A stretch of DNA of 64,000 nt from Sordariomycetes sp. S80-01Y (Eukaryota > Ascomycota > Sordariomycetes): NCBI GenBank assembly GCA_037042185.1, contig JAXQJY010000028.1, positions 1,302,001-1,366,000 on the forward strand. The letters run 5' to 3'. The notes under the pieces are model-generated. The model worked only from the letters and a program-made list of their open reading frames with translations. It did not search any database and was not told the origin of the DNA. This document shows, one piece after another, positions 7,405 to 64,000 of this stretch; the first letter of the stretch is position 1, and each line of letters begins with the position of its first letter. Both the position numbers and the translations under genes were made by a program.

Positions 7405-8613
7405 TCAAATTTTTGTTGATGCTTTGCATACCACTCCCTTCTCCCTTCCTGGGGTAGCATTGTCGGGCGTTCATGATACCACTTCTCCACCCTCATTGCT
7501 CAAAAATAATATCTTTCATCATACCACTTGGTATTCAGCATCGTCGAGAACTTTTACGTCGGCCCTCTGTGAGGAGGGCGATGGACCTATGATTTCAGAG
7601 GCTTCGCATATATAAGCCAGTGCGCTGGCACTTGTTACCTGCATCTTGCTTTACTTGCTTTTCACATATTTTTGCTCTTGGCAGACTTGCATTCCACCTT
7701 ACGATTCATGACCTGGAAAAGAACTTGGCAGCGAGGAAGCCCTTTTAGCGGCGGCTTGGGGAACTGGGAACCGGGGAGGGAGGGGCATCTGATGGGTTTT
7801 ATTCTACTACAATGCTGCCTCGCGGCAACTTGTTAATTGGTTTTTGTGAACAGCGGAACCAATGAATAGTATATAGTGTGATGAAATGTATCGTCTTCTC
7901 TAAGTACTCTCAAATCTTGTGTCTGTGACCGTAAGCACGAGGCTTGGCTGGTGAGTGGTGAGTGGTGATGGCTTCACATCCGGGGCCATAACAGAGTGGG
8001 CTCCGGAGGGTTCGAATCGCCAACAAACCAACATTGCCACATTTTTTCGCAATCAAAAATAACGCGTGAGCACTGTATCAACACTCACGGATATGCCCAG
8101 CCAAGGACGAACAATATTATCGTCCGTGAAGAGCAAAAAAAAGTCGACAACCCCATCCAACCACTCCACCCCAAATCCCCCCAACGTGCGCCATCCAACC
8201 CGCCACGCGACGGGGGAGAAGTCTCTGCAGAGTGAAACCTCCCTGAAGGGTGAACTCCGCACTGAGGGCGCGCACCAAACATCGCAGGTTACCCATGCGA
8301 GTGGGCGGCCACCGCGGCGTTCGGGCTGGACGCCGTCGGGGGGGATCTGAATGTGTTTGGGTGTGGTCGAGGTTGGAAGTTGTGGGTGTCTTCTACCGTT
8401 GGACCATGACAGTCAAAGTAAAATTCTCAAAATTGGGGCCTATATACCTAGCCACCTGCCATGGCAGGTGGGGCTGGGGACGTCACCGCGACTTGGAGCG
8501 CGCTGAGACACCTCCGACGATGCTGCTCCAACTTCAACTTTCACCAAATTGGCTTTCAAAGCTGCGACTGACGGCCTAGACTTCTACGATGATAATGCGA
8601 TAGCCGCCTCAAC
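7405..8613. other. Intergenic: 3' end of the WD40 gene and promoter of GPI15
   Basis: No supported gene. AT-richer sequence with TATATAAG near 7610 and TGAATAGTATATAG near 7863 fits a 3' UTR and polyadenylation region. The stretch 8030-8600 is the likely promoter of the PIG-H gene. The open frames within it have no family resemblance. Confidence 0.55.
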
Positions 8614-22185: not shown

Positions 22186-24060
22186 ATGGCAGCGTCTAGC
22201 GAGACCAGTGACACCATGACTGACGCCACCCACAAGGAACATGACCGTGAGCTTGCAGACCCCAGACCCCCTGCACTTCTAGCCCATATTGACTCTTTCC
22301 CAAGGTGGCAGGCAAAGAAGTCTCTCTGCTCAAGAGGAGCCCTATCGCCATGACCGTCTATCGGACATTGAGTCCCAGTACGGCGCGGAGGAGACCGCAG
22401 ACCGTGGGATGGGGGCTCTTCACCACATCCGGTCCCGCACGAGGAGCAGGACGAACGAGACTGTCATAGGATGGGCGTTCCAGGACCCTGACAACCCATA
22501 TAATTGGACGAGTGTGAGTCTCGTCATAAATCCATAGCGCACCCATACAGTTGGCTCACGACGGTACAGGGCAAGAAGTCAAGAGTTGTGTTCTTTTCAG
22601 GAATGATGGTCGTCAACTCGACAATGGGCTCTGCCCTTCCGTCCAATGCCGTCCCCGTCATCGCAGACCAGTACGGCATCACCTCGAGCGAGCAGCGTGT
22701 CCTACCCATCTCGGTCTATCTCATCGGTTACGTCTTTGGCCCTATGATCTGGGGCCCGCTATCGGAGCAGATCGGTCGAAGATACCTGTCCCTGGGGTCC
22801 TTCACAGTCTTCTGTCTGTTCACAATGGCTTGCGGCCTGGCCCCAAGCTGGGAGGCCCTCCTGGTCTTCCGCTTTTTCTGCGGCATCACGGGCAGCTCGC
22901 CTATTGCCATTGTGGCGGGCATCATGGCGGATGTCTACGGCGATCCAAAGACTAGAGGCCGCGCCTTCGCCGTGTTCATGGCCGTGAGTCCCAACCTCTA
23001 CAAGCACAGCTCGGACAGCGTACACTAACTCAGCCATCAGACCACCGTCTTCGGTCCTCTCTTCGCTCCCATAATCTCTGGCTACTGCTCCACCACCATC
23101 GGCTGGCGCTGGACCTTTTACATCGGCGTCATGATCGCCGGCGCCACCCTCCTTCTCATTATCTTCCTCCCCGAAACCTACGGACCCATTCTTCTATCCC
23201 GCCGCGCAGCCGCCATGCGCAAGGAGGATCCCTCCAGGCGGGTCATCGCCCCGCGGGATCTCGAGTCAACCGACCTAGGGCAGCTCCTGACCGTCGTGCT
23301 CACGCGCCCTTTGCGGATGCTGTTCAGCGAGCCCATCGTCAGCACAACCTGTGCTTACCTCGCTCTGTGCTACGCGATATTCTACATGTCCTTCCAAGCC
23401 TTCCCCATCATCTTCGGCAACCTGTACGGGTTGAGCCCCGGGGTTACGGGGCTGTGCTACCTCCCCATCGGGGTGGGAGCCCTGCTCTCCCTCCCCATTT
23501 TCTGGTACTGGGACCACATTCTCGCCACGGCTACTTCCAAGAACCGATCCTGGACCAGACGCGAGGAGTCCCGCAGGTTGCCGCTGGCGTGCGTTGGCGG
23601 ACCCATCTTCGTCGTCGCCCTCTTCTGGCTCGGCTGGACCGCGCGCTCCTCGGTTCACTTCGTCGTACCCATGCTTGCAGGCGTGCCCTTTGGTCTGGGG
23701 TTCATGCTCATTTTCATGGCTCTACTCAATTACTTGACCGATGCATACGACATCTTCGCCGCCAGCGCCAACGCAGTGGCGTCCATGTGCAGGAGTTTGT
23801 TGGCTGTGGTGTTGCCGTTGGCTACCAGTCATATGTTCGCGGATCTGGGCATCTCGGGCGCTTGCTCTGTTCTTGGAGGATTAAGCGCTGGGATGTGCAT
23901 CATCCCGTTTGTGTTTATGTGGAAGGGGCCGAGCATCCGGGCAAGGTCGAAATTCTGCATTGCGTTAAAGGAGAGGAGGGAGGAGATTGCACGCAAACAG
24001 GAAGAAGACAGACAACGTATTGAGAGGGCCGGAGACATCGAGAAGACAGAAGCAGAATGA
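22186..24060 (+). CDS. MFS transporter, DHA1 (drug:H+ antiporter-1 / polyamine-like) type
   Basis: I read four exons (22186-22246, 22305-22513, 22570-22983, 23041-24060) giving 567 residues and about 12 membrane segments in the plasma membrane. The cytosolic N terminus is hydrophilic and ends DPDNPYNWTS, the usual lead into helix 1 of this family. Motif A reads WGPLSEQIGRR after helix 2. Helix 4 carries FRFFCGITGSSPIAIVAGI. A PETYGPILL block begins the central loop, as in FLR1/TPO-type carriers. The C-terminal tail is highly charged. The substrate cannot be read from sequence. It is not part of the metabolic cluster at the right end, which lies 22 kb away. Splices are GTGAGC/CCAAG, GTGAGT/TACAG and GTGAGT/ATCAG. 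Confidence 0.9.
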
Positions 24061-45534: not shown

Positions 45535-46038
45535 GCCTCCTGAGAAGTCCGCCTCAGCTATCGTCATTTCAAGTAGTACACGCGGGTTGCACTGGAGTTA
45601 GGGACAGGGAAGGGGTTGATCATGCTTTCGATAATATGTACGTTGATAGTTGAGGGAGCCGCATTCGTTGATGCTTGTCATGAGGCTCTAGTCGCTCAAG
45701 AATGCTCTCCATTAGTCTGGGACAGGCCGGTCAAATTGAAACGAGATCAGTGTCTATTCATGTATAAAGAATGCACAGTATCCTCAGACTCGTCTCGTGA
45801 AAAACTCACAGCGCCGTCTCCAAAGCTGCTCTCGGTTGCCACCTTCCGCCGTTTCGGCTTAAATGCATAAGCTATGAGCCCAGGAACTACATACCTAGGA
45901 AGACAACATATTTAGTGGCTGTCGCCCGGCTTCCTTAGCGTGGACGGGGTCCCCGACTTTCACACGGAACGTCTACGCTTTCCTGGACATCATAGTCGCA
46001 GTGGAGGCTCTGCCGGGCCTTCCCAAGGAAAGAAAACA
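45535..46038. promoter_or_regulatory. Intergenic boundary: YRA1 3' end and promoter of the Zn2Cys6 gene
   Basis: These 504 bp mark the junction between the housekeeping block and the cluster. The right part is the promoter of the regulator and holds the palindrome at 45945-45955. Confidence 0.55.
45945..45955. promoter_or_regulatory. Candidate Zn2Cys6 operator CGGGGTCCCCG
   Basis: An inverted pair of CGG triplets spaced by five bases, CGG-N5-CCG, forms an 11-bp palindrome 84 bp before the regulator's start codon. The same 11-mer occurs at 51165-51175 between the dehydrogenase and the transporter. Zn2Cys6 dimers commonly bind such inverted CGG pairs. Binding is inferred. Confidence 0.45.
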
Positions 46039-48431
46039 ATGTCTCAACGACAGCAGGCTCATCGTCTTGGTAAAAGCATAACCGAGGCTGCTCGTACGTC
46101 TACAGCGTGAGTTCATAACCTGGACTTCCTTGAGTCGCCCGTATGAGTGCTCTCTGACAAGTATAGCTGCATCACCTGTCGTGATCGCAAGATTAAATGC
46201 TCTGGCACTCGTCCCTGTCGGTTCTGTGCCAAGCGGCGGCAAGACTGTGTCTTTCCGGAGTCGACCAAAGGGAAGAAAAGGCTATATGCTGTTGCGTAAG
46301 TCTACCCAAATCCATTTACTGAGCCACTAGCTTCACTACCCTCAGCCACCTTCAACATTTAACATTGAATGCAATGTTGATGCGCAGGTGCTCAGTGAAA
46401 TTGAGAACTTAATTTTGGTGGCCGCAGATCCTACATTACCAGGGCTGATCATTCTGCAGTTACGTCGAAGAATTAGAAAGACAAAATGCTTTAACAAAAT
46501 CACCGCTGCCGTCGATTCAAGCAGTGGTCTCCCCAGAACACTCCCCAGGGAGCGTTGGTGCGACTCCAGAGACACAGTCAGACAGACGGTCGAGTAAGCG
46601 TTCACCCCGGACCTGGTATGGGAAATAAGCCTGATTGAATGTCTCAAGTTCTCGTACCCGAGCCTGTTATGACATCTAGTCTGCGTTTTGGCACTAGGAT
46701 CAAGGACTTGTCTGTAGGCTCGGCTCAGCCTACTCCAGAACGTCAGCTCTATTCTTCAAGAGGCAACGTTGGGTCCCCTGATGATGCGTACAACCTCCAG
46801 GGGTTATCGGAAAAGTCTTTTGGAAATTACTCTGGTGTGCAATGGCCAACGGAGGATAGAGCTTTTGCTCTGTTGGAGACCTTCCTTGGCGCATTGAGCA
46901 CAGTCCAGCAGTTGCTTGATGCTCGAGCTTTCACCGACCAATTGAGCTCCCATTTCCGCAGCGGAGACTTCAATGGGCCTGTTCGAAGCTTATGGGACAT
47001 CGAATATCTTCTGGTCATGGCAATTGGGGAGCTACTCCAAGGGTCAACGAGCACCAACGGTCCTTTGCCGGGTGTTTATTTCTACAAGCACGCCATGGCT
47101 CATCTGCCGCAGCTTGGCACTCTCCGCTCGGCTGGAGTGATAGCCGTGGAGATCGTAAGTCTCTCAGCTTTCTACTTGCAATGTGCGGATTGCAAAGAGG
47201 ATGCCTACGTTTACGTAAGTTAATGAACCAGTACATCATCGTACATGACAAGCTTACTCATAACAGGCTGGTCTGGGATTGCGTTTGGCCGTGTCTAACG
47301 GTATGGCTGGGCAAGAAGATAACAAACGAACATCGGAGGCTATACACAGGAGCAGACTATGGTGGACGATCTACATGCAAGAGAGGCGTCTAGCCGCAGC
47401 AACTGGCAATCCGGTGGGCATCAGCGACGACTCGATTACAACGCCAATCCCCAGCGAAACATCACTGTTCCCCTCTGCATGCGCACTAAATATGAACATC
47501 AAGCTTGCGAAGATCACAGGCTCGATCAGTCAGAACATATACGGACGGAGGCATCAGTCGGATAAGGACTTTATCTTGATGACTCAGAGTATACTGACAT
47601 CTTTGCTCGAAGTGCAGCAGTCAATGCCGCCAGAGTACGCAGTTGAGCTGCGCTCGGAACCTCAATCGTTTTCTAGGACAGGAGCCACGCTGTATCTGAT
47701 GCTATTCCAGGCCATAATGCTGGTCACTCGACCCATCCTGCTACACACAGCACGGACTCACCTCAAAAAAGATTACACGCGAGAGGATGCCCCCGCAGCG
47801 GACTCTGCGCTTCTATTGAAGTTCTCAAACGTTTGTGTTGATGCTGCAAAACACACTTTGACCATCGTCGAGAGTGTCAAGACTCAGGGGATCCTCGGTA
47901 AGCTCATTTAACTTACAAGCTAAGGGAAAAATTGCTCACTCGCAATGTCCAGCAAAATTTGGATTCTTTGACCTCGACGCCATCTTCTCTGCAGCGTTCG
48001 TTTTTGTCATGGCAGCCAAGTTAGGCGAAAGTAATACCGAACGCGTTGCCGAAATCTTGAGAGCCTTGAAGCTCTTGAAGTATCTATCAGACTGCGGAAA
48101 TAAAGCGGCCTGCTTTCGGCTGGCGGACATCCGCCAGATGTGCTTCCGCCTAGCGATAGATATCAGCGTTCAGCCCACACGGCACTCATCGGTACAGCCT
48201 GGATGGAGTACGGCAGGGGGGAATGCTGAAATGGGTCGAAATGCCGAGGGCTCTTTATCTAGAGCCCCTTGGGATGGTATCGAAGGCTTGCTGAGCGGAG
48301 AGCTGGATATGTTCGCGGAAGAAGGGAGCTGGGACTTTGCCCCCTTCTGGCAGGATAGGGATTTCGCCCTGGACGGAACGGTCGAGACTGACTGGGGCGA
48401 GTTAGAAAAGCTGGCTTCAAATTTTGAATAG
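46039..48431 (+). CDS. Zn2Cys6 transcription factor of the metabolic cluster
   Basis: I read six exons (46039-46106, 46167-46295, 46460-46593, 46649-47214, 47267-47897, 47953-48431) giving 668 residues. The binuclear zinc cluster is complete: CITCRDRKIKCSGTRPC then RFCAKRRQDC (C-x2-C-x6-C-x5-C-x2-C-x6-C), followed by a linker and the dimerising helix YVEELERQNAL. The middle homology region of fungal_trans type includes DAYVYAGLGLRLAVSNGM and RLWWTIYMQERRLAAATGNP. The acidic, tryptophan-containing C terminus may be the activation domain. It is the leftmost gene of the cluster and ends 13 bp from the convergent aldolase stop codon, so it is the probable pathway-specific activator. The 164-bp second intron is the least certain splice. 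Confidence 0.85.
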
Positions 48432-48444
48432 TAGTGTATTTAGA

Positions 48445-49449
48445 TCATGATGACTGCAGGCCTCGCAGCATGTTCGAGTTCGCCCTGCCGGATGAGGAGA
48501 GCAATCCAACATCATTAGCACCAACAATCCACTTCGCTCCTAGCTCGTTGATAACCCTCCCCAGGATGTCCGGGCGATGATAAAGCCCAGCGATACCCAT
48601 AAACTTCCCATGTTTCTTGGCCGCATTTCCCACCCTTTGTAGGGCGTCCCAAAACTTAGGATGATCCCAGTCCGGCAGCGTACCTATCTCAGTCGCGAGG
48701 TCCTGTGATCCTACCAGCAGGACATCACAGCCGGGCAGGGCGGCAATCTCGTCGACTGCCTCGAGAGCACCGGACGTCTCGATCATGATGAAGCATTGTG
48801 AGCCAAAATCGTTCATCTCCTGCATGATAATGGCAGGGGAGGGCGATGCGTATTCAAAGTGAGGGAAGCCGCCGCTGAGGGAGCGTTTCCCCAGCGGAGG
48901 ATACTTTGTGACCGAAATGGCCTTCTTTGCGTCATCTAGTTGCCGTCAGTCTCTGACTTGACGTCTACGAACTAGCTTATACATACCAACGCCGTGGATA
49001 TGAGGAATGATGACGCCCATAGCCCCAACGTCCAGGGCCTTTTGGATGAATCCAGCGCCGCACTCGTGCGGAACCCTCACAAAAGGCGTAACCCCCGCTG
49101 AGATTGCTGTGATGCATATTTGCGATGCATCCTTGAGTGTCATGCAGGTGTGCTCAAGATCGATGAACAGGGAATCGTAGCCCGAAGCTTTGGCGACATG
49201 GACAATCTCGACTCCACGACAAATCTTGAGACCGAAGGCGGTGCAGATCTTGCCTTGGCTGGCCAGGGAGACCAAGTTGTTGGTCGTGATGGCCGTTGGA
49301 GCGGGCATTGCGGCAATCGTTCGGACTGGGCTACAATGGCTTTGTTTGGGAAAGGGGCGAGGTATTGTTGGCGAGTAACCGGCGAAAGGTAGCTTATCTA
49401 CGCCGTAGAGGCCATTCCGGCATCGGCGAAGCACTCCGGCAACCCTCAT
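48445..49449 (-). CDS. HpcH/HpaI-family aldolase
   Basis: There are two exons (49449-48987, 48935-48445; GTATGT/ACTAG) and 317 residues. It is a class II, metal-dependent pyruvate aldolase barrel. The family marks are SLFIDLEHTCMTL, VTPFVRVPH, GAMGVIIPHIHGVDDAKKA, the metal glutamate in CFIMIETSGALE, and the metal aspartate in VGSQDLATEIG. Such enzymes join or split pyruvate (or 2-oxobutyrate) and an aldehyde or keto acid. The first 47 residues are arginine-rich with one acidic residue and could be a mitochondrial presequence; a second ATG at 49308 would give a cytosolic form. It sits downstream of the dehydrogenase on the same strand. In a PKS-NRPS cluster it may make a gamma-hydroxy amino-acid precursor (inference). 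The alternative is sugar-acid catabolism. Confidence 0.88.
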
Positions 49450-49920
49450 CGTGAGATATCAGCTGTCCGCACGCGAGCAAGACTCGGCTCAAGGGCCCCG
49501 AACGCTAGCACGGCCGACAACCGGGGAGAACGGCCTGTTTCAATGGAGCTCGGATCTGGAACGCCGCGAATTTGCTGTAGGATATGCAACTGTCGCGACT
49601 ATGCGCCCACTTACAGGGGCGCGCGGGGCGAGGTGGAGTTTAAAAAGGGGCCAATTGTCAATGACCCACGGATGTCGCTTCCGTCGCTTGGAAATAGGCA
49701 GATGACTCTTTCTGACCTCTGTCCCCCAAGACTCAATAAGTCTGTCACAGAGACTGTGAGGATATGATGAACTACTGGGCATTGGATGTCCTGCAGAGGC
49801 CTCCGATTTATGTTTCACCAGACACCGAGGGAGACCTTATCGTGAAAGAGCTCTGCCACATGCTGTTTTGGATGTTTCAACAGGAGGAATACAATTCAGC
49901 ACATGCGTTTATTCGATCTT
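49450..49920. promoter_or_regulatory. Upstream region of the aldolase gene
   Basis: These 471 bp lie between the aldolase start and the dehydrogenase stop. The part near the aldolase carries several CGG/CCG triplets (for example GGGCCCCG near 49494 and ACCGGGGAG near 49519) but not the exact palindrome found elsewhere in the cluster. Confidence 0.45.
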
Positions 49921-50886
49921 CTAGGCCATCATCAGATGTTTGTACACGTTATCCAAAGCCGCTGCTGCGGTCCTCACTTGCGTCTCCGCCGTAGTCGCAC
50001 CAATATGCGGTGTGCTGATAACCTTTCCCGTAGCCCACAACCGTTCGTATCGTCCTAGAACAGGGGGCTCTGCCTCATGACAGTCAAGACCAGCACCCGC
50101 GATTGTATTGTTCTCCAAGGCCCGGATCAGAGCTTCCTCGTCAACGATACCTCCCCTGGCAACGTTGATCAGGACAGCAGTCTTGCGCATCTGGCCGAGC
50201 TGCTTGGCGCCAATCAGTCCTCTCGTCTTGCCGTCGAGAGGGACATGAAGAGTCAGGATCTCGACATGGGGGAGCATCTCCTCGAAATCAGATACACGAG
50301 TGTGCTCAATGTCTTTCCAAGTGTCCGCTGGTGCGAAAGGATCGTAAGCCCACACCGAACATCCGAAGGCCCCTTGGAACATCCTTGCCACTGCGGTGCC
50401 GATGGCACCCATCCCCAGGATGCCGATTGATTTTCCAGTCATCATGGTACCTAAGCAGTGTTCTTTGCGCACCTCGATGCCGGCTGCTTGCTTGACAGAG
50501 ATGCTCTGCAGTTGACGCTTAACTCCCATTGTCAAGGCCATCACGAGCTCAGCCACGGATTGAGCGTTGACGCCTGGCGTGTTGCAAATTGCGATTCCAT
50601 GCCTCTCGCAAGCATCCTGGTCGATGATGTCTATTCCAGTTCCCTGTTTACCGATTGCTCGGAGTTTCTTGGCAGAGGATATGTCCAGCGCTGAGATGAC
50701 ATTCTCGCGGACGAGAATGGCTTCAGCATTATCACGCCAGTTCCTGACCTCGGGATCTGTCGGCAAGACCACATTGTACAAGGACTGAGCGTGCTTAATG
50801 GCGGCCGGAGGAAACGTTTCGAGGAGATAGATGTTGGGGTTGCGGGGAGTGCCGTTGGGCTCAGGGGCAGTGGCGGAGGGCGCCAT
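49921..50886 (-). CDS. D-isomer-specific 2-hydroxyacid dehydrogenase
   Basis: This intronless gene encodes 321 residues. The NAD-binding loop is GKSIGILGMGAIGTAVARMF. The catalytic set is complete: arginine in INVARGGIVDEEAL, glutamate in GLDCHEAEPP, and histidine in STPHIGATTAET. The substrate-binding N-terminal domain carries GKQGTGIDIIDQDAC and GVNAQSVAEL, closest to 3-phosphoglycerate dehydrogenase-like members that lack regulatory domains. The enzyme interconverts a 2-oxo acid and a D-2-hydroxy acid. It is divergent from the transporter, with 413 bp between the starts. With the aldolase it could reduce the aldol product or oxidise a hydroxy-acid substrate. The true substrate is unknown. 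Confidence 0.88.
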   Translation of the reverse strand: MAPSATAPEPNGTPRNPNIYLLETFPPAAIKHAQSLYNVVLPTDPEVRNWRDNAEAILVRENVISALDISSAKKLRAIGKQGTGIDIIDQDACERHGIAICNTPGVNAQSVAELVMALTMGVKRQLQSISVKQAAGIEVRKEHCLGTMMTGKSIGILGMGAIGTAVARMFQGAFGCSVWAYDPFAPADTWKDIEHTRVSDFEEMLPHVEILTLHVPLDGKTRGLIGAKQLGQMRKTAVLINVARGGIVDEEALIRALENNTIAGAGLDCHEAEPPVLGRYERLWATGKVISTPHIGATTAETQVRTAAAALDNVYKHLMMA

Positions 50887-51299
50887 GGTGTCAAAGATGG
50901 TTTACGGTTGATGCAAATACTATTACTCTAGGTAGTAAATTACAACTCTTTTATCCCATTTCCGTTCCATTGTGATCATGCCTCGATCAAATACCACTTC
51001 TGGTGGACTAGCGGCGAAGGCAGGATGTGGGAAGCCGGAAGAAGGATCCGTTTCAACGGCTTCGCAGATCCGTGGTCGTCCTAGACGGCTTCTCATACCC
51101 GTTCACTCAGAACGAGAATTCGGGTCCCTCCTTCACCCCACATACCCCGGACTGAACAGAATTACGGGGTCCCCGTGGGCTCAGTATAGGAGACCTGGAC
51201 TTGTACTTAAACCTCTGACCATCCTCAGGCCAGAGTGCTTCTCTCAACAACACCCTATGCCAGTTCTTGATCCTCAACCCGACCTTCCCAGCTGCAATT
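50887..51299. promoter_or_regulatory. Divergent promoter of the dehydrogenase and the transporter
   Basis: A 413-bp shared control region. It contains the palindrome CGGGGTCCCCG at 51165-51175, a nearby CCCCGG at about 51146, and a CCGTGG...GACGG pair near 51070-51090, all of which could bind a Zn2Cys6 dimer. Confidence 0.55.
51165..51175. promoter_or_regulatory. Candidate Zn2Cys6 operator CGGGGTCCCCG (second copy)
   Basis: The 11-mer is identical to the one before the regulator gene, and its left flanking base is A in both cases. It lies 125 bp before the transporter start and 279 bp before the dehydrogenase start. Confidence 0.45.
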
Positions 51300-52968
51300 A
51301 TGGCTGTCGAGACTAAACCTGCGTCAACCCACGAGGTCGATATGCCCGACAAGAGTGAACTCGTCGACACCGCCCAGGTCATTCACTATGCCATCGATCC
51401 CGATGAGGAGAAGCAAGTCGTCAGAAAGCTCGACCGCGTGATCATGCCCTTGATGGCACTTGTGTATTTCTTTCAATACCTAGACAAGCAAAGTATCAAT
51501 TATGCCTCAGTCTTTGGTCTGTCTGAATCACTTCACCTGTCCAACGGAGAATACTCGTGGGCTGTGTCTCTGTTCTACTTCGGTCAGCTTGTATCGGAGT
51601 ATCCGGCTGCGTACCTTATGAGTCGATACAACGTCGTACGGTTTGTAGGTATCTGTATGTAAGTGTTAATCCACCGTCAAGACTTTGCCGCAAGAGCTTG
51701 ATTTCTCCATGAGACTGGCTAACAGCAGACCAGCGTTCTCTGGGGTGCCGTTGCTGGCTGTCTTGGAGCGTCACAAGACTTTGCAAGCCTTGGAGCCATC
51801 CGATTTCTCCTCGGTGTCACAGAAGGTGCAGTGGCGCCTTCGTTTATGATCATCACCAGTACCTGGTACAAGCGCAGAGAGAATCCGATTCGTGTCGCGT
51901 GAGTCACCCCCAATGAAACAGTCAGAGTTCTAAGGCTAACATGGCCTTTAAAGCACTTGGGTATCAATGTTCGGCGTCTCACAAGTCGCCGGTGGCTTGA
52001 TGATGTACGGTATCGGCCTTGCAGACATGAAGCTCCATAACTGGCGCGTAATGTTCATCCTTTGCGGTGGGCTCACGGTTGTGTCAGGTATTCTCTTCAT
52101 CGTGTTCATGCCGACGGATCCGTCCAAGGCCTGGTTTCTCAAGGAACATGAGAGAAGGGTTGCTGTTGAGCGTCTGGCCCAAGACCGTCAGACAAGGGAT
52201 CGGTCTGACTTCAACATGGCCCAAGCGAAGGAGGCATTCCTGGACCCACGCACATGGCTTCTGTGCTCGATGGCTCTGTTCATCTGCATTCCAACTCCTA
52301 TTGTCAAGGTGAGATCTAGCCCCCTATGTGAGTTTCCAATGAACTGACATTTCTCGAAGTTCTCTTCCAAGGTCATCCATGGCTTCGGCTACTCATCTCT
52401 CGTCACCATGCTTGTCGGTCTTCCTGGCGGCGCCATAGCGTTCACACTCATCTGGATTGGTGCTCTAGGCCCAGTGTACTACCCGAACACGCGTTGCCTG
52501 TTCGGCGTGTTCCTGGCTTTGATGCCAATGATGGGATCCCTGCTACTCCTCTTCCTCCCCAGCGGTCGACCGTGGGGTATCGTTGTTGGTACTTGGTTTG
52601 CCGGATCGACTGCTCCACCCGTCGGACAAGCAATCGCTCTGATGGGCGCCAATATCAAGGGAAACACCAAGAAGTCTGTAGTCGGAGCACTGTTCTTCAT
52701 CTTCTACTGTATCGGATGCATTGTAGGGCCGCAGCTATGGCAGGAGCCCGAGGCGCCCCGTTATCAAAAGGGATGCATCGCCAGCGTGGTGAGCTGGGCT
52801 TTGCTAATATGCTCATTCTTGACATTCTACATCACTGGAAAGCGGAGCAACAAGAAGAGAGATGACATGTTTGGGGCAGTCGGTTCGGAATCGAGCGAAG
52901 GGGTCGGGCAGGATATCGATGACGATCGTACCGAGAGGCAGGACAAGCTTTTCCGATACACCTTGTAA
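51300..52968 (+). CDS. MFS transporter, anion:cation symporter (Dal5/Tna1-like) family
   Basis: I read four exons (51300-51658, 51734-51898, 51954-52308, 52360-52968) giving 495 residues with about 12 membrane segments. Family blocks are LDRVIMPLMALVYFFQYLDK in helix 1, SLFYFGQLVSEYPAAYLMSR, IRFLLGVTEGAVAPSFMII, and STWYKRRENPIRVATW. The loop after helix 6 has DPSKAWFLKEHERRVAVERL. Family members take up carboxylates such as allantoate, nicotinate and vitamins, so import of an organic acid or export of an acidic product are both possible. It shares its promoter with the dehydrogenase. The acceptor of intron 1 is CAGACCAG (ends 51733); an earlier AG would shift the frame. Confidence 0.9.
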
Positions 52969-53202
52969 ACATTAGACTGTGCTAGACGAGAAGATCGAGC
53001 TCAGAATGGGGTCTAACGTTTTGAGATGTGGATTCTAGACACTCGCAAGGATACACGAAGGCTTTTGATGGCGGCTTTGAATTCCGTGGGGAGAACAAAG
53101 TGCCTTGTGAGAGGAATAGAACTATCTTTGTTACACTATTCTGGTAGATGATAATCGAAAGTTGCGAAGAACAAGACAGAAATACAGACGATCCCCACCC
53201 AT

Positions 53203-56200
53203 TTACTTCACGAGTCTTGGAAAGACGATGCTCCCATGCTCCCCAAAAGTCTTCAAAAACTCCACAAGCGTCTGATGCATGCCCGCTTCCCCGGCGCGAG
53301 TGGCCCATTCATCCACTGGTATCTCCCTTCCGGCAAACTCCTGTACGCCATCGCTGTGTGTATCATGTAAACCAGACTTGCTGCCCAAATCCCTGACAGT
53401 GAAACGAACGCCGCCAATCTCATGATGATAGTGAACTCCCGGGGAGTGGTCTGATACCACAGCGGTCAAAATCTCGGAAACAACAGCCTCCAAAGTGACG
53501 GAGTCCATCTGGCCGTGCATAGAGCTCTGCATCGATGGTACAGCACCCAAGAGCCTTGAGTACTGTTGAAGGTTCTGTACAAGATCCATATCTGTTTCGC
53601 CTTTCCGCTCGATATTGGAAGGGCGATGGATCCAGACAGGCCAGTCTGGATGGACCGTGTGCAGGTTCTCCAAGAAGACCTCGCTCGCCCACTTTGAAGA
53701 TGCGTACCCGGCAGTGCCATTAGTTGGCGGTGGATACTGTTGAACAGAGACTGGTGCGATTTCATTCTCTCCAGCGGCAGCTGCAAAGCTACAAGTGCCG
53801 GCCGTGGAAACGAAGTGGAAGGGGACCATGCGAGGAAGACACATCTCCACCAACTGCTTCGTGGATTCCAAATTCGGGCGACGGAGAGACTCATACGTCT
53901 TCATGTATGAGACGTCAGCGCCGTTGTGTAGGATTCTTGTCGCTTGGCCGAATATGCGCTCAGCATTTTCGACAGACAACCCAAGCCGAGGCTGTGAGAG
54001 GTTGCCTTCATAAGCAAAGACTCTGTCCAATTTCTGTAGCTCTTCCCTCTTGGCGCCATTCCGGACGGCAACGCAATGGACTTCGGAAACATTCGGATCA
54101 TTGATAAGGGATTCCAAAAGACCTGAGCCAAGGTAGCCGGTTGCACCGGTCAGAATAACCACCTGTTTCTCACTAGGGCCGATAGCAGCTAGTGACTTGA
54201 CGTCTAGTAACTGCGACGGCAAGCGTGTCTCATCATCCCAGCGGATGGTGGAAACAGATTGCTGCTGTTCTTGCCCTTCGATTCGTCGGGCCATGGCGCT
54301 GAGCGTGCTCAAGTCAAACATTTCAGGTAAAGGGAACTCGATGCCGAAGGCCTGTCGAATTTGAGCCTGCAGTCCTAGCAGGAGGAGTGACGTGCCACCG
54401 ACGTGGAAGAAGTCCGTGTCAGGCCCAATGTTATGGGCACTGGTCACGCTGCCGTCGATAGCTGACGACCAGAGCCCCTTCAATTTCGACTCCGTTTCAG
54501 TAAGAGAGTGCTCCTCATTCTCATTCTCTCCAGTCTCAGGCAGTGGAAGCTCAGCCGTTGCTCTGCGGTCGATCTTGCCACTGTTCGTGGTCGGGAGCGC
54601 TTCAACGGGGATCACCAGAGAAGGTAACATATATTGTGGAATATCGAGGTCCGAGGAGAGTTTCTGCAACAATTGCGCTCGGACGTGATGCTGGCAGCTG
54701 TTTGCGAACACGACGTGAGCGGTCAACATGTCGTGGCCTTGGGGATGGAGTCGCCGAACAGAGACAACTGCTTCGGAAACATCCCTGCCTCCATAGGCTC
54801 TGATAGCGTGTTCTACTTCGCGTAAGTCGATGCGTAAACCTCGAAGCTTGATCTGCGTGTCTCCCGAGACGCGACCCTCTATCTGAAGCGCACCATCTTT
54901 TCTCCATCGGCCTAGGTCGCCAGTTCGATGGAGGATGCTTGAGCTGGGCGTAACAGTATCGGGCACAAATTTTTTCTTAGACATCTCTTCGTTCTCAAGG
55001 TAGCCTGGAACGACGCCTGGACCTCCGATGAGGATTTCGCCTTGCACTCCGAGTGGGACGGCTCGCATCTGATCGTCCACGACATAGACCTTGTAGTGGG
55101 GCAAGGGGTAGCCCACAGCTATATTCCCGTAAGAGTTCGTCTCCAGGGAAGGGTCGTAGACCAGTGGCATAGCTGTAGCAGCGAAGGTGGCCTCAGTTGG
55201 CCCATAGAAATTATTGAGTTGTAGGTCAGGTTTGTGAAGGGATGCAAACTTTTCAAGAAGTGTGTCGGTAATCGGCTCTCCTCCAACAAATGCCGTCTTC
55301 CACGAAGAACTCGAAAGTGCTTCCGAAGATCCGTAGCTCATCCATGAAGAACATTCTGAGGAGCAGGCGTAGGTCCACGTGATGCGCTCTGAGAGAATGA
55401 AGTTGCTGATCCCGCGTGCGTCACCTCGAAGACGTCTGGGTACGAGACAGGCACAGCCACCAGAGCAGAGTGCGGTGAAGAGCTGCAGCAAAGACATGTC
55501 AAATGCCGATGAGCTCTGCTGCATCACCCTCTCCTGACCAACGCCGAAAAGCTTGGCAGTTGATTCGAACCAGTTTCGTAGGCCTCCATGAGTCAAGGGG
55601 ACACCTTTCGGTCTACCCGTCGAGCCGCTGGTGTAGAGGTAGGTCGCCACGCCACTCTCCGTAGCGGCGATCTCTATAGGCGTTCTTGTGCAGGTTATGG
55701 CCGTTATATTCAAGCACCTTAAGTTAGGCAGCTTCAGGTTGGGTACAAGTTCTTCCGTACTCGAGTCGATGAGCATCAAGTCCGGCCCGCAGTCTTGCGC
55801 AATGGTGGATAGACGAGCAAAAGGCTGACTCAAGTCGAGCGGTAAGTAACTCGCCCCGACGAACATAATTGCCAAAACGCTAGCGACCCAGTCAATACTA
55901 GGCTCTTCTAAGACGGCAACTCGTTTTCCATTCGTTATTCCGCAAAACTCGAGATTCCCGGCGATCGTCTTGACGCGTTCCAAGAGCTCACCATAGGTGG
56001 TACTCAGCCCATCGCAAGACACAGCGCTGAGGTCAGGGGAAGTTCTCGCGATTTCTTCGAACCTGTGAAGAGTAGTCTTGGGCCACTCTGAAGCGGGCTC
56101 GGGGCCTGTTGAGGAATTAGCTGAGTTGAAAACGTTTCAAGACTTCTAGGGATCTCACCCTTCGACAAGGCGAGAGCTTGATTGACCTCTTCTCGTTCGT

Positions 56201-57600
56201 ACAGTTCCGGATTACTCAGACTCTGGTCTGAGTTTTTGCAGAATTGCTTCACAAGCAGCTCATAGCTTTGAGCAAGACGCTCAGCCTGCTCGTGCGTGTA
56301 CAGGTCGTTGCGAACTATGAGCATTACAACGCACTCGCCATCTGGATCATCAATGATGTCAAGTGCAATATCGTAGGCCAGCTTCGATGCTTGAAACTCA
56401 AGTAGTTCAAGTTGACAGTCATCAGCCCAACGCTGCTTCTGGCGTTGGCCTTGGCGATAATCAACGAAAGCCTGAAAGACTGGGGTGTGAGTTGCTGATC
56501 GCGGGAGGTCTAGTCTGTGGTTGACGGTTAGCTGCTGCCGGGTCGAAGAGGCAGTGATAGGTCATTTGGAAGAGTATCCGGACTACATACTGGTTCAGGA
56601 GAACCTGGAAAGGTATCTTGGAGTGCGAGAGCGCAGAGTAAGCTTTCTTGCGCGTGTCCTTGAGAATATTCTGGAAAACATCTTCCGCTTGAGTGTGAAA
56701 ATTGAGAGGCAGGAGGTTGACGAAAGATCCGATGCTGTCCATCAGTCCATCATCACGATTAGCATCCCCGATGCCGATGGCGAAATCTTCTGTGACCGCG
56801 TGCCTCATTAGGAAAGCTCTGAAGGTAGCTAGGTAGAAGTGGAATGGCGTGACACGGCACTGCCGGCACACGTTTTGGATCTGAGCCTTGGTCGTAGCAT
56901 CAACCCTAATATCGACGCGCTCATTCTCCAGCGTCGCAAGCATGGGACGAGCCACCGCTTTTGCCAAGCGGAAAGTTGGCAACGGAGGAGGTACATCGGC
57001 AAGCTCGCTCCTCCAGAACTTTAGGTCATCGTCGAAGCCGCCCGAAGCAAGCTCGAGCCTCTGCTTCTCGGAGTAGTCAAGATATTGTTGAGGCTTTGAG
57101 GCCGGAGACCCCTTGGCATAATGCTGGGCCAAGTCCCTAAGTAGAACCTGTAGAGATTGGCCATCTGCCACCATGCCGTGAGCACCGACCACAAGGAAGT
57201 GAACGGTGGGTGAGAGAGCGAGCAGATGCATTCTGAGAGTGTCTCCTCTCTCCAAGTCATATGAATGATGCTTCAGATCGTTGAATCTGTGAGTTGCTTC
57301 CTCCTCTTCAGCGATGTCATGGTGCTCCAGATTGACGGCGGGGAAGTCGATAACACCTTGCATAGCTTGGCCATTTTGTTCTGCGAAACAGGTTCTAAGA
57401 GACTCGTGACGCTGAATTACCGAGAAGACTGCTTGGCGGAAATCTGGATAGCTTATTTGCCCAGTCAAGCGAAATAACGCTGTATGGTTCATGCTGGTCT
57501 TATCTTCCTCGAACATGGAAACGAACCAGAACATTTCCTGGCTGAAGGACAATTTGCGGGTCTTGCGTGGCGTGATAGGGGTCATTGGTGTAAAGGGAAC
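53203..57600 (-). other. NRPS module of the hybrid: C-A-T-R
   Basis: The condensation domain (about 57570-56160) opens LSFSQEMFWFVSMF. Its HHxxxDG site reads HGMVADG (57160-57180), so the second histidine is glycine. The adenylation domain (about 56090-54560) has YTSGSTGRPKGVPLTH, HRTGDLGRWRKDG and NSGKIDRRA. The carrier serine is in VGGTSLLLLGLQ (about 54370-54405). The reductase (about 54160-53250) has the NADPH loop LTGATGYLGSG, the serine in FVSTAGTC, and the tyrosine-lysine pair in GYASSKWASE. The tripartite catalytic set Ser/Tyr/Lys is therefore present. Confidence 0.88.
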
Positions 57601-60600
57601 TGCCGGCGATGATATCGTCCAGTTCCCTTTGGAAGCTGCCGTCGCAGGGGGCGACGAGACTTCGGTGTCTCCGGCATCGCTTGCGCCGCTGGCGGGGAGG
57701 CTAGGGTGGCCTTCTGAGGTAGAGCCTGATCTCGTTTCCTTTGAATCCAGTTCTTCGGTCTTAACAGCCCTGGTGGCGACTTTGCACTCGTCCACAGTCG
57801 GGATTCTGATAGGCTCCGGTCTAGGAGCCGATGGCTGCTCCATGGGCGTGGGTGCTGGGGTCAGATCGTCAAGGGGACCCGGGGCTGGCGCCAACGACTC
57901 CATGGCTGTCTCAATAAGCTCGCCAATGGAAGCTCCATTGAGAATTTTGAGTACGGGCACATTGACTTGTAATGTCTTCATGAACCAAGTACGGATCTCG
58001 ACGGCGAGCAAGGAGTCGGTGCCTAGACCATCAAGCTGGAGGCTGTCGAGATCCTCACCGTGAAGCTTCTCGGCATCCAGCTGATACAAAGAGGCTATTT
58101 TCTGAATGAAAGCTGCTCTGATAATTTCAGCCACCTGTTCTCGAGTATCAGCTTTTGCTAGCTGTGCCTTGACGGGCACATTCGCGGAGATGGCGGTGCC
58201 GTTGGAATTACTGAGCTCCTTGTTGCGTACAAAGTGGCTCATGAATGGATTCGAGGCCCAAGGTGGTAAGCTATCTGCTTGAGAGCTGACAGTGGTTAAT
58301 CCGGTCGTGATTTCGATTGAGTCAGCAGATCCCGGTCTTCCTAGAACAACTGCCTCGGCGAAGAGCTGGTGGAAGTCGGTTTCGGAAATGAAGTTATAGC
58401 CCCCAAGCTGGACCACACTGCGAATGTTGATGTTTTCTTTGGCGATGTAGCCAGTCCCCAGAACCGGACCAATGTTGATAACGGATGCTGCAAGACCGGA
58501 CTGACGTCTTTGCTCTGCAAGACTTGACATGAACAAATTGGCCGACGCATAGTTTGCTTGACCAACATTTCCGATCACGGCGGAGAGGGATGAGAAAAAG
58601 ACGAAGAAGTCGAGTTCTACGTCTTGCAGCAGATCGTTGAGATAGATACTGCCGTTGACCTTGGGCTTCACCACTTTCTCAAAAGCATCGAGGCCCATGT
58701 CGCTGAAAGAAACGTCCTGCAGGACCACTTTGAATTGGTCAGCATTGAGATGTCGTATCACAGCCATGATCACTTACTAGCACCTTGTGCCACGCCTCCA
58801 ATGGGCGGCAATGTAGAGCTTATGCTGTGGTAAGCTTGGGAGACAGCATCGCGGTCGGTGATGTCGCTGTCATGGTGTTAGTCATTATCTATAGGAGGGA
58901 TGAGATAACTCACCAGCTTATGGTTGTTACGTTCCCACCTAGACCTTCCATTTTCTCCAGCCACTCATCCCGGATATCCGGTCGTCTGCTGGTAAGAGCA
59001 ATGTGCTTTGCGCCGTGGCGAATCATCCACTCGCAAAGCGATAACCCGAGGCCACCAGATAACCCGGCAAGCCAATATGTCTTATTGGGCGAGAAAGAAA
59101 TCTTGTTCTCGATCGGCTGCACTTTAATCGGGACGTCAGAATCGACAGCCCAGTCCACAATAGTCATCAACGGGAGGTCATCTTCAGCGCTCGTGAGGTC
59201 TCCTGCTGCAAGAACACTTTGGCCAAACAAGGCATTCTCTTGCTTTGAGAGCCACGAAGTCGCTTTGCGAGAAGCATTCTCGAGCCGAAGCTGTATGTCA
59301 TAGACGTGAGAGTCGTTCGGCGTGTACGCGTTTGTCCCGAAGAGGGTGTCTCGGGTCTCCACGCGACAGTACACGGATAATTGGGCGCGGATTCGATCAA
59401 CGATGGGGGACCCGCCCTTATTAGGGCTGAAGTCGACAAATATGGAGGCCTTCTTGGGGACAGAGGTTGCAATATATCGCTCCGGTGCACTGGGGTGCAC
59501 ATGAAGCCAACCTTGAGGCGTAGACTTCCTGTTGCTGGATACGAAGGTAACCTCGACTCCAATTAACTCGGCTTCTGCTCGAAGAACTGCGGCGAACTCT
59601 TCATCCGGCTCGTATGCTATTAGTATGTCATCTTCGGCCAAATCTTTGAGGATGATAGAAGCCAGTATGAAGTGCGAGATCGAGGTAAGGACGTGGCCCT
59701 CTGAAATCTCTGTTGTGTCGACCGGAGAACAAATGTCATGCCACGCGGTAACTGAAGACCCGTTGGTATCTGACAAACCTACAACGGTCTGTGATGTCGC
59801 CGAATTTCTTCCGAGAACTGCGAACAGGCAGCCCGTTATGGAGACTCGCACCGGGCGTAGTAAGGACTTTGAGACAAGCAGGCGCTCCTGGTTGTGCTCG
59901 AGACCGCGGTGACTCAAGGCGTACCCCGAATCCGTAGTCTCAATGGCAAGCTTGTCGGACTTTAGCTGCGCACTAGCCTTTATCTCCCTCCTCGAGGAGT
60001 TATAGCGGTCGTTCATTGTCTTGTCCATGATCAGGCGTGGAATCATAGCCTGTCCGCTCAGATCTACCACAATCTCCGGCTCGAGGGACAGCAGCATGTC
60101 GAGTGGCTCATCGGCGGTCTGCCAGTCCAGCACAAGTTCAAAGCGAAGCACTGCTTCAGCTAGGACTCGACCCTCAATCCTTGAGCTGTCTTCCAAGTCG
60201 AAAAGCTGGACATTTAGTGTAGGCTGCTCTCGGACCAAAGTCCTCAGCAGCCCAAGCACCATGTTTGCATGTGGCTGGCTGGCTCGACGGCCGCTGGTCA
60301 CCCAGAAAACGCGTTGGCAAGTCAGCAGACATTTCTGTAGACCTTCCCATTCAGTGGACGTGACGTTCTCGAAGAGCGGTTGATCGAGTTCCGTTAGACT
60401 GATGAGAGTGGTAGATGGCGAGACTGGCGCGTGCGAGATATCGCGTAGTGACTTGAAAACCCTGATGGATGCATAATGACGACCCAAAAGTGACTTCAAC
60501 TGATTTACCAGACGAGAAATGGGTAGCCTTTGGCCACCAATCAAGATGACATCTCGTGTCGTCGAGGTAGTCTCAGTCGTCGCCAGAGGGGATGATAACG

Positions 60601-63600
60601 GCTCGCGCAGGCAGTTAACTCTATCATCAACGGCCTGGGATACAAAGACGGTGAATGGCTTGATCAAGGACTCGATGTGAGGTGTAGCAGTATCGCATCC
60701 AGAGAAGCCGGTGGTCCGGAGTAGCTCATCCCAACCGACGAGGTCGATGAAAGGAGAAAGCTCCCGTCCCTCTCCAGCTCCCGTCCACCAGTCTGGGAAA
60801 CACCCAAACACTGTGCCAAGACGAGCCACTTCTAAAGTTTGCCCCTCGAGAGCGACAAGATAGCCGCCTGGCTTGAGAAGCCGACGAACGTTGCGCATAG
60901 TGGTTTCGAGGGGTGCTGTCGCATGTAGAACCATTGATGCTACAACCAAGTCGTAAGAGCCCTCCTTGAACCCTTGGTCAACGGGATCTTTGCTGAGGTC
61001 TAGGACCTTGAATGTTGTCCGATCGGCTTGGTCATGAAGGGCGTCCCGCGCAGCTTCGAAAAACCCAGATGATATATCGGTGAAGGTATAAGAAGCGAAA
61101 GACGACCCGACTTCGCGATATATAGTCTTTGTGGCGCCGCCTGTCCCGGCTCCAACTTCGAGTATATCCATATGAGGGTATCGGTGAACGATTTGTTTCA
61201 CGGTACGGGCCAGATATTTAGTGCAGTCTGGCCAGCCTAGACCTTGTTCGTAAACCTGCGCCAGAAGGTCGTCTTCCATCCCGAGCTCGATCCCGCTCTT
61301 GGATCCCATCGCAATGTCTGCAAGGTTCTGCCCCATGGTGTTGAGAAGCTTGAAGTCGATGTCTTCAGCTAGCGGTCCCTGCACCTCGAGAAGTTTTGCC
61401 TGAGTGTCGGCGCTCCAAGCTGATTGCCAGAACTCCAAATCGCCCGAGGCTGCCAAGCCAAGCATATGCGACGCAAAACTGAATAGTCGGACATACGGGC
61501 CAGTGTACCTCGAAGGGTGATCGGCGGATACAGCCTCTTGAAGCTGACGGAGGTAGAAAATAGCGGTTCTCTCAAGCAGATGGGCCTTCTTCCAGTCATC
61601 GGCTGGGGCAAGCTGGTCGTTCGCCACAATTTCTGCATTTGGACCCAAAACGTCCCATATTGTCTTAGAAAAGATCTGCTTGTCGTCATCGGATGTTGCA
61701 TCGGAAAATGGAACACAAGTGAGACCTTCAACTTGGATCATGGCGTGGTCGTCGCGGCTAGAAAAGATATCAATGTCTCCACCAATGTTTGATGTCCCTT
61801 CAGGCAGAACGGTATCGAAAGGCAACGCAGCAGTAGAGTCGAGCTCGGACGAGCAGATATCGGGGTTTACACGGACCGCTTTGATAGTCCGAGGTACGTG
61901 CATCGTCCATAAAGACCCGTCGTACGGGGCGGCGTATGCGAGGAAGACTGTTTGGAAGGCAGCATCCAGTACAGCAGGGTGTACCAGGTAATCCGAAGCC
62001 TCGACCGCCTTTATCGAGCCGGTTGAGTTACCTAGTTTCCTCTTCATGCCTGTCAACGCATCGAAAGGATGCGAATAATGGTAATCAAGGTCGCTCAGCG
62101 ATTTGTAGAAGTCATCTGTGCTTACTGGTAGAGCATCTGAGCATGGGGTTCGTCTCGAGGGTAGGCGACCAGGCGTGCTAGGTCCTAGGGAGACCCTAAT
62201 GGTACCCCTGGCAAAGACGTCCAAAGATGATTTGTTGGTACTACTTTGTGCAGGGGCTGCGTGGTACTTGAATGTCGCCTCGATATACAGACCCGCAGTG
62301 TCCGCTATGTCCGACATCGAGAAGAGCGTCTCGACACAAGATTCGTCATTATCAAATGTCAGGGCTCTTCCGATGTCTAGATCGAGTACCTCCAGCAGAG
62401 ACACCGGCTTGCCATGTACCATGGCCATGGCAGCTTCCAGAGCCAAGACGACATAACCGGCAGCTGGAAAGACAGTCTGACCTTGCAATTGATGTCCGTT
62501 GAGCCAAGGGAGCTCTTTAGGGCGAATTAGATGGCGCCATCTCATTTCCTGGTCGGTGCTGTCTGGTGTAAGATGGCCCAGTAGCGAATGTACTGGGTCT
62601 GATCTTGTCCGCATGGCTTGAGCATACCTGGACTCGTGCCAGTAGTCTATCTCATGGTTCCAAGAGTAAGATGGAAGGCCCTTCACAATCTCAGTTGTAC
62701 GATCGCCACCAGAAAGGAATTGATGCAACGCCTCGAAATCAACAGAAGCTGGCCCAAAGCGGCTCTCGACAGCACCGAGACTACTGACAAGAGTTTCTAT
62801 AGCATCCGTGCCCCTCTTTGATAAGCCAAAGTAGGGTATCGAGCCGCCGGAGATGTGCTGAATCGTCTGCGTTGCTGGATTCCTCAGTGCTGGGTGAGGT
62901 CCAAGCTCGATAGCGCCTTCGAACGGACCATGGGTGGCCCATGCCGCATTGATAGCTTGTGTGAAAAAGACTGAGTGTGTCATGTTGTCGTTCCAATATG
63001 TGCCGGACAGTATTTGAGAGTCGGCTGTCGGATCGCGGTTGGGGACGCTCGAGAACCACTGGCAAGAGTTACCAGGCAAGATTTGAATGTTCAGATCGGC
63101 AAGCGAGTTGAGATAGGATGTGGCGCAGGCGTGCATGTGATGGGAGTGGTAGGCCTTTGTGACCTTCAATGGTCTCGCGAAGCTTCCTTCAGTTTCGAAG
63201 ATGGTTTTCAGCTCCATCACGGCATCACTGTCTCCCGAAACCGTCTGGCTAGAGGGAGCATTCGAGGCTGCAACGCAAAGACGTCCTTTGAATTGGTTGG
63301 AGTCACAAAGCTCCTGCATGCGCTCCAAGCTTGCCTCGACGGCCATCATTGATCCCTCTTTCCCGTTGACGCCTTGGGCAAATTGGGTACATATGCCACG
63401 ATAGTATGCTATGCAAATGGCATCCTCAGCGCTTAGGTACCCAGCGGCGAAAGCTGCTGCAATTTCGCCAGAAGAATGTCCAACAACCGCAGAAAGCTCA
63501 ACGCCAGCCTTCCTGAGCAACTCGACCTGAACGATCTGGATGGCGGTACATAAAGGTTGAGAGAACTCTGCTTCTGCAATGCGTGACGAAGCATCATCTT

Positions 63601-64000
63601 TCTCCAGCTCATCCAACAGCGACCAAGCAGGACGATCAGAAAGTGGCAGCTGGTCAAGGCGGTTCTGAAGACGCTCAAGAATGTCGCGTGCTGCTGATGA
63701 TGATTCGAAAAGTTCAACTCCCTGCCGCGCCCATTGGGCACCTTGGCCGGTGAAAACGCCAAGCAATCGCGGTTTGCGCCCGTTTCGACTCGTTGTTGTC
63801 GCTCGAACGCCGCATTCCTTTCCGCCAGTCGTAGTAAGTTGCAGCTTCTCCTCGATTTGTGCGCAAAGACTATCCGCATCGGACGCGGCAAACACCGTAG
63901 AGATAGGGAATCTTGACCGTCGCGAGTACAAAGTTTGCGCAATCTGTTCAAGACGCAAGTCCTCATGGTGGTCGCGGAGATATTGACAAAACTCCCTCAG
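53203..64000 (-). CDS. PKS-NRPS hybrid megasynthase (5' end outside the window)
   Basis: A highly reducing polyketide synthase is fused to one NRPS module, with 3523 residues visible. The exons are 64000-58914, 58866-58778, 58727-56591, 56514-56159 and 56105-53203, with introns of 47-76 bp that keep the frame. The order is AT, DH, MT, degenerate ER-like linker, KR, ACP, C, A, T and a terminal reductase (R). The sequence is open at the right edge, so the ketosynthase and start codon lie beyond 64000. In known relatives the product is an acyl amino acid released as an aldehyde, or as a tetramic acid after cyclisation. No ER motif is present, so a separate trans enoyl reductase is expected; none is in the window. 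It converges on the symporter gene with 234 bp between stops. Confidence 0.95.
57870..64000 (-). other. PKS module of the hybrid: AT-DH-MT-(ER remnant)-KR-ACP
   Basis: The acyltransferase (about 63770-62830) has GVFTGQGAQW and the active serine in VVGHSSGEIAAA. The dehydratase (about 62600-61690) has the catalytic histidine in LNGHQLQGQTVFPAAGY and the aspartate in HPAVLDAAFQ. The C-methyltransferase (about 61560-60640) has the SAM loop LEVGAGTGGATK. The stretch about 60600-59110 occupies the place of ER and structural KR but lacks an NADPH loop. The KR (about 59100-58270) has LAGLSGGLGLSL and the active block SSLSAVIGNVGQANYASAN. The ACP serine is in LGTDSLLAVEIR near 58010. All catalytic motifs listed except ER look intact. 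Confidence 0.88.

Follow-up and report, generated by a model that had tools for sequence, protein, structure and literature searches.

Does an aldolase encoded beside a fungal polyketide synthase-nonribosomal peptide synthetase (PKS-NRPS) provide that synthetase with its own amino-acid monomer, or do two unrelated functions lie side by side? The question is raised by the right-hand end of a 64,000-nucleotide stretch of contig JAXQJY010000028.1 from Sordariomycetes sp. S80-01Y (the whole stretch is called the window below), where five genes are closely packed between positions 46,039 and 64,000. They encode a Zn2Cys6 activator, an HpcH/HpaI aldolase, a 2-hydroxyacid dehydrogenase, a symporter of the MFS family and a PKS-NRPS. 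From 46,039 onward we modeled the five genes manually, combining open frames with GT-AG introns, and Pfam supports each model; the group and the gene starts agree with those of the original prediction, which had been made from the same sequence. We give a probability of about 45% to the reading that a fungal PKS-NRPS cluster with an aldolase, resembling that for Sch210972, has its left edge here, and that the aldolase supplies an amino-acid monomer. We favor this reading because of the domain order of the synthetase, the family match of the aldolase, its published standing as a clade marker, an A domain of the amino-acid type, a palindrome in two promoters, and the G+C content at third codon positions (GC3).

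According to passages of PMC7421883, the Sch210972 clade of fungal PKS-NRPSs (Ib-B; 20 hybrids) has an aldolase as its key marker, the 4-hydroxy-4-methylglutamate monomer needs both an aldolase and a transaminase, and members of the clade have or lack a trans-acting enoyl reductase (trans-ER) and sometimes have a Diels-Alderase. A passage of PMC8902786 relates a proposal that the transaminase lies outside the Sch210972 cluster. Compared by gene content, our locus resembles the Sch210972 cluster of Chaetomium globosum (CghA-CghG) in the aldolase beside the PKS-NRPS and in showing no adjoining transaminase in its visible part, and it differs by its additional dehydrogenase and symporter and in that neither a trans-ER nor a Diels-Alderase is visible before the window ends. 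We take CghB to be a member of the HpcH/HpaI Pfam family. An aldolase beside a PKS-NRPS is thus already known, and a synthetase that may have its own building block varies a known theme and adds no new principle.

The aldolase is, judging from its residues, a working-looking pyruvate-type enzyme: D50, E52, H53, R78, E160 and D186, which have catalytic roles in the family, are invariant in all five aligned sequences. Its scores lie far under all four matched curated NCBIfam cut-offs, with 101.6 bits against 406.75 for TIGR03239 (GarL), 98.3 against 393 for PRK10558 (GarL), 92.0 against 368.8 for HpaI and 76.9 against 441 for PRK10128 (2-keto-3-deoxy-L-rhamnonate aldolase), so that it does not group firmly with sugar-acid or HpaI aldolases. 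The nearest solved relative, 3qz6 (107 bits), is named only as an HpcH/HpaI aldolase, and macrophomate synthase (PDB 1izc), a fungal enzyme of the same superfamily, is a weak match at 52.9 bits. In a tree of 41 rows, 39 of them different, the window aldolase has a very long branch (3.87) and joins two bacterial rows at 93/74, which is not firm; since the branch is long and lacks firm support, the tree places it neither with the sugar-acid enzymes nor apart from them. The original prediction had named a firm grouping with such enzymes among the findings that would together tell against a building-block role; by the cut-offs there is no such grouping, and the tree adds no firm placement. An in-frame ATG upstream, at 49449, would add 47 residues to the aldolase (49309-49449), among them eight Arg or Lys and one acidic residue; this extension resembles a mitochondrial targeting sequence and could be one, or it could be 5' untranslated region.

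The visible part of the synthetase runs AT-DH-MT-KR-ACP-C-A-T-R in one chain of our hand-made model, while the KS domain and the start codon fall outside the window, past 64,000. The C domain was recognized from its likeness to PsoA and further C domains, the remaining domains by Pfam. With the exception of the second His of the C domain, the catalytic motifs examined are in place: read by eye against the consensus of each domain, they are GHSSGE in AT, VGAGTGG in MT, NYASAN in KR, GTDSL in ACP, GGTSL in T and NSGK in A. The closest solved counterpart of the first PKS exon, which extends from AT into KR, is LovB, the lovastatin nonaketide synthase (PDB 7cpx), with 923 bits against 806 for PsoA; four sequences were found at E<=1e-40, and these two were the only long PKS chains among them. 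The likeness to LovB may point to a decalin-type chain. Unlike LovB, the window synthetase has a full A-T-R module. For C and for A-T-R the nearest relative is PsoA (PDB 9x29/9x2c), from which the AT-KR part departs in being nearer to LovB.

The pocket code of the A domain, D M L Y F G F F A K, was read by eye from the alignment with PsoA and numbered after GrsA, whose ten residues are quoted in a passage of PMC11253843. Asp235 is present, from which we read the domain as amino-acid activating. The same source reports Ala (engineered TycA) and Gly (EnSynA1) at this position in hydroxy-acid A domains and Ile in the keto-acid domain StsA; it also reports that McyG activates Phe with Val at 235, so that the rule is one-way. 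The Pro of the GPTE motif is present as well and is probably the proline that is Met in StsA. The pocket shares D, M, G, F and K with CcsA (DMSEVGCFCK, Phe) and Syn2 (DMSSVGGFCK, Trp), whose codes are given in a passage of PMC4994942, where substrate codes are also described as unreliable in fungal hybrids and domain switches as having failed. In passages of PMC9495618, PMC9701702, PMC9685919, PMC10212144, PMC8362661, PMC8159843 and PMC11101550, we found neither a reference code for 4-hydroxy-4-methylglutamate nor a cluster with this gene set. A search of one open-access library, limited to the words 2-hydroxyacid dehydrogenase, PKS-NRPS and aldolase, gave 83 papers in which two or more of them occur and none that joins the three.

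The dehydrogenase has phosphoglycerate dehydrogenase (PGDH) as its best NCBIfam match (TIGR01327), with 233.4 bits, below the cut-off of 454, and it covers only positions 39-301 of the 525 in that model and does not have the C-terminal part of PGDH. Its best PDB match is 1wwk (174 bits). Sequence and alignments, inspected by eye, place an Arg, a Glu and a His at the catalytic positions and an Asp after the Rossmann motif; presumably the first three are catalytic and the Asp suggests NAD, and the enzyme is probably NAD-linked. McyI (PDB 8wpo, 9jnq) offers a distant bacterial likeness (133.9 bits at best), being a PGDH-like dehydrogenase tied to a PKS/NRPS cluster, that of microcystin, where it has a role in making a building block. 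For the symporter, three weak PDB matches were obtained at E<=0.1 (20-24 bits), namely vesicular glutamate transporter 2 and two D-galactonate transporter sequences, and these fit an anion/carboxylate symporter; the original prediction had put it forward as a Dal5-like carboxylate symporter, a label whose Dal5 part stays putative.

We propose that the aldolase would condense pyruvate with pyruvate, another oxo acid or an aldehyde to give a 4-hydroxy-2-oxo acid, which a transaminase encoded elsewhere would turn into an amino acid. The A domain would load this amino acid, the C domain would couple it to a reduced, methylated polyketide, and the R domain would set the finished compound free, either as a tetramate or as an amino-aldehyde. 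The dehydrogenase most likely acts on the oxo-acid side, where it would oxidize an imported 2-hydroxy acid to the substrate of the aldolase or reduce surplus oxo acid, and it is probably not the maker of the monomer. We infer all the substrates, the order of the steps and the service of the four small genes to the PKS-NRPS. If these genes do serve it, the locus would encode a hybrid synthetase with its own monomer supply, in which a redox enzyme and an importer are added to the known aldolase, and such a supply, if true, would help in predicting products from sequence.

The promoters add a further link between the small genes. The pattern CGGGGNCCCCG has only two exact matches in the 64 kb, both in cluster promoters, against 0.10 expected, and none of 100 shuffles reached two. 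The two sites, each reading CGGGGTCCCCG, stand before the activator and in the promoter from which the dehydrogenase and symporter genes diverge. This shared candidate palindrome is moderate evidence that the activator, the dehydrogenase and the symporter may be under joint control; it ties these genes together and not the PKS-NRPS, whose own promoter lies outside the window. Composition was counted for a single cluster too: GC3 is 0.57-0.64 in four cluster genes (the activator left out) and 0.64-0.81 in four upstream frames, so that the mean is lower in the cluster, with ranges that touch and upstream frames that run from stop to stop and possibly include untranslated bases.

A number of observations weigh against the aldolase-supplied reading. 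In the synthetase, the C domain has HGMVADG, with Gly in place of the second His of HHxxxDG. PsoA differs in having HHIIMDG, and LovB, with HRLVGDG, also does without this His; in the five alignments listed of 36 matched, the position is His in three (PsoA twice, 5u89) and Arg in two (LovB, MokA). Since mutation of this His sometimes leaves activity and its role is debated, as stated in a passage of PMC11546977, the module may still be active. In the A pocket the invariant Lys is the sole basic residue, and none is left for a gamma-carboxylate; this is a mild argument against 4-hydroxy-4-methylglutamate or another diacid, given the warning in PMC4994942 about fungal codes. The original idea of an aldolase-fed PKS-NRPS like that of Sch210972 keeps the clade marker and the invariant aldolase residues on its side, with the pocket speaking mildly against its diacid. 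The R domain retains the Ser-Tyr-Lys triad of short-chain dehydrogenases/reductases (GYASSK), as does PsoA and unlike CpaS, in which Leu replaces the Tyr according to a passage of PMC3202784; no residue specific to Dieckmann domains was found in PMC7421883, and release may give a tetramate or an aldehyde. Between the visible models, up to 64,000, no gene for a transaminase, a trans-ER or a Diels-Alderase fits, and any such gene, or one for a Knoevenagelase, would sit to the right of 64,000. As to the promoters, the palindrome was picked after looking; copies with one mismatch number five against 2.46 expected, no clear excess, as 11 of 100 shuffles reach five; two random segments share a word of at least 12 in 2.3% of pairs; the palindrome is absent from the aldolase promoter, where there are only everted half-sites; and the PKS-NRPS promoter, being outside the window, is beyond the scan. 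Pairs of CGGGG and CCCCG at any spacing up to 30, tried as a signature of the cluster, were rejected, since the window has two of them where 300 block shuffles average 5.2, and this lack of enrichment at free spacing counts on the same side. What is unusual is the exact palindrome with a one-nucleotide spacer alone. Half-sites are common in the window (51 + 70), and further everted pairs lie within the cluster, at 51,145, and outside it, at 23,436. A last point on this side is the proximity of related aldolase and dehydrogenase genes in bacteria, which bears on the first alternative.

That alternative divides the locus into two units: the four small genes would form a self-contained catabolic module, and a PKS-NRPS cluster with no relation to it would start 234 bp further on. 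A sugar acid or other 2-hydroxy acid would be imported, oxidized and cleaved by the aldolase to pyruvate. We regard this as a serious rival, though less probable than the first reading: an activator, a permease and enzymes make a complete set, the palindrome joins only the activator and the dehydrogenase/symporter pair, and the weak solved relatives of the symporter include a D-galactonate transporter. Set against this are the published use of an aldolase with a PKS-NRPS as a clade marker and the distance of the aldolase from the cut-offs of the sugar-acid enzymes.

Bacterial genomes provide evidence on both sides. A single scan of bacterial and archaeal genome contigs gave 26 loci from 130 pattern matches, many of them short, with aldolases just 23-35% identical to that of the window. 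A 2-hydroxyacid dehydrogenase was found by tblastn (E<=1e-5) in the flank of seven of these 26 loci, where the expectation is 0.75 if the mean density over ten genomes is used and 1.44 with the highest density, the density being counted by a different criterion (PF02826, at least 100 bits) and in genomes of which 7/10 were chosen for having the pair, which raises the expectation if anything. In locus L002 (7990-13530) the two genes adjoin, and Pfam names a KDPG aldolase, a PfkB kinase, a zinc alcohol dehydrogenase and a short-chain dehydrogenase beside them; in L008 (5751-11569) some 1.2 kb separates them, and the genes that Pfam names nearby include those of an oligopeptide-type ABC transporter and an IclR regulator. 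Both neighborhoods look catabolic. In the other five linked loci, the distance is about 3-8 kb, and six of the seven linked loci fall in a clade of the aldolase tree far from the long branch of the window aldolase. Ten further loci from the same ten genomes (L027-L036), which span 2.5-3.7 kb apiece and include two whose gene is also that of an earlier locus, have no dehydrogenase, although some hold closer relatives of the aldolase, and a relative of the symporter was found in none of the 36 loci. These ten dehydrogenase-free loci and the lack of a symporter weaken the reading as a catabolic set, so that they and the catabolic neighbors named by Pfam pull the odds in opposite directions. The pairing of aldolase and dehydrogenase is a bacterial theme, from which little follows as to orthology, and none of these loci has the whole set. 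Of the gene set that the original prediction had considered might exist elsewhere without a PKS-NRPS, what was found is therefore the pair, at the level of families. Scans of viral contigs gave three pattern matches for the aldolase and six for A-T-R, none of which was confirmed. If the small genes do not serve the PKS-NRPS, the locus would be a caution that not every aldolase encoded close to a PKS-NRPS is there to make its building block.

In a second alternative, a 2,4-dihydroxy acid would arise when the dehydrogenase reduces the product of the aldolase; the NRPS module would load this acid to give an ester and then a tetronate. The model would be CaaA, the synthetase of the acyltetronic acids carlosic acid and agglomerin, which is proposed to activate malic acid (a passage of PMC5381763), so that a fungal PKS-NRPS may take a hydroxy diacid. 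The dehydrogenase carries the two Pfam domains of its family, and the C domain is atypical at the second His; the A domain here keeps Asp235, which is lost in the hydroxy- and keto-acid domains of PMC11253843 as far as its passages list them (an indirect argument, as CaaA is not among these), and it also keeps the GPTE Pro. We consider this route improbable, and the hydroxy-acid, ester or tetronate product that had been suggested at first is disfavored by Asp235, counter-evidence that is one-way given the McyG exception. Slightly less probable still is its fullest version, an ester or tetronate counterpart of Sch210972 in which the aldolase and the dehydrogenase make the 2,4-dihydroxy acid and the C domain dropped its second His for a non-standard acceptor. 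The replacement of this His by Gly, in a module that otherwise looks complete, amounts to a natural test of what the residue does, which is debated. Finally, that one of the small enzymes is a bystander or a self-resistance copy, the PGDH-like dehydrogenase being a product-tolerant copy of the target, is very improbable: PGDH is its best NCBIfam match and clusters occasionally encode resistant target copies (a passage of PMC12616698), but the match is under the cut-off and partial, and the aldolase and the symporter would be left unexplained.

Table 1. Positions of genes and other features in the window
Feature	Position	Strand	Details
Zn2Cys6 activator gene	46039-48431	+	679 aa; Zn_clus 35.0 bits, Fungal_trans 46.9 bits
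Activator exons	46039-46106, 46167-46295, 46460-46593, 46649-47214, 47267-47897, 47920-48431	+	Exons 1-3 fixed, 24 combinations open; longest chosen, alternatives fit equally
HpcH/HpaI aldolase gene	48445-49308	-	270 aa, one intron; exons 49308-48987, 48935-48445; PF03328 83.1 bits
PGDH-like D-2-hydroxyacid dehydrogenase gene	49921-50886	-	321 aa, intronless; PF02826 168.4 bits, PF00389 72 bits
MFS symporter gene, weakly SLC17-like	51300-52968	+	491 aa; MFS_1 138.6 bits
Symporter exons	51300-51658, 51734-51898, 51954-52308, 52372-52968	+	
PKS-NRPS gene, 5' part outside the window	53203-64000	-	3,523 aa in the window
PKS-NRPS exons in the window (five)	64000-58914, 58866-58778, 58727-56591, 56514-56159, 56105-53203	-	
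C-domain core motif HGMVADG in place of HHxxxDG	57160-57180	-	
Palindrome CGGGGTCCCCG, candidate Zn2Cys6 binding site	45945-45955	.	83 bp before the activator ATG
Second copy of CGGGGTCCCCG	51165-51175	.	In the 413-bp divergent dehydrogenase/symporter promoter
Everted CCCCG-N21-CGGGG half-sites	49496-49526	.	Upstream of the aldolase; weak candidate

The gaps between the five models measure 13, 612, 413 and 234 bp and leave scant space for a further gene of usual size on those strands; the search for families did not extend to antisense frames. The activator and aldolase genes are arranged tail to tail, 13 bp apart (48431-48445). The neighbor upstream of the activator, labeled YRA1 in the original prediction, has an RRM_1 match of 34 bits. 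In the left 46 kb, the tested frames match cobalamin-independent methionine synthase, threonine synthase, tRNA pseudouridine synthase and ribose-phosphate pyrophosphokinase, among others, and a gene for the fungal signal recognition particle RNA lies on the minus strand at 8,136-8,415 (132.9 bits).

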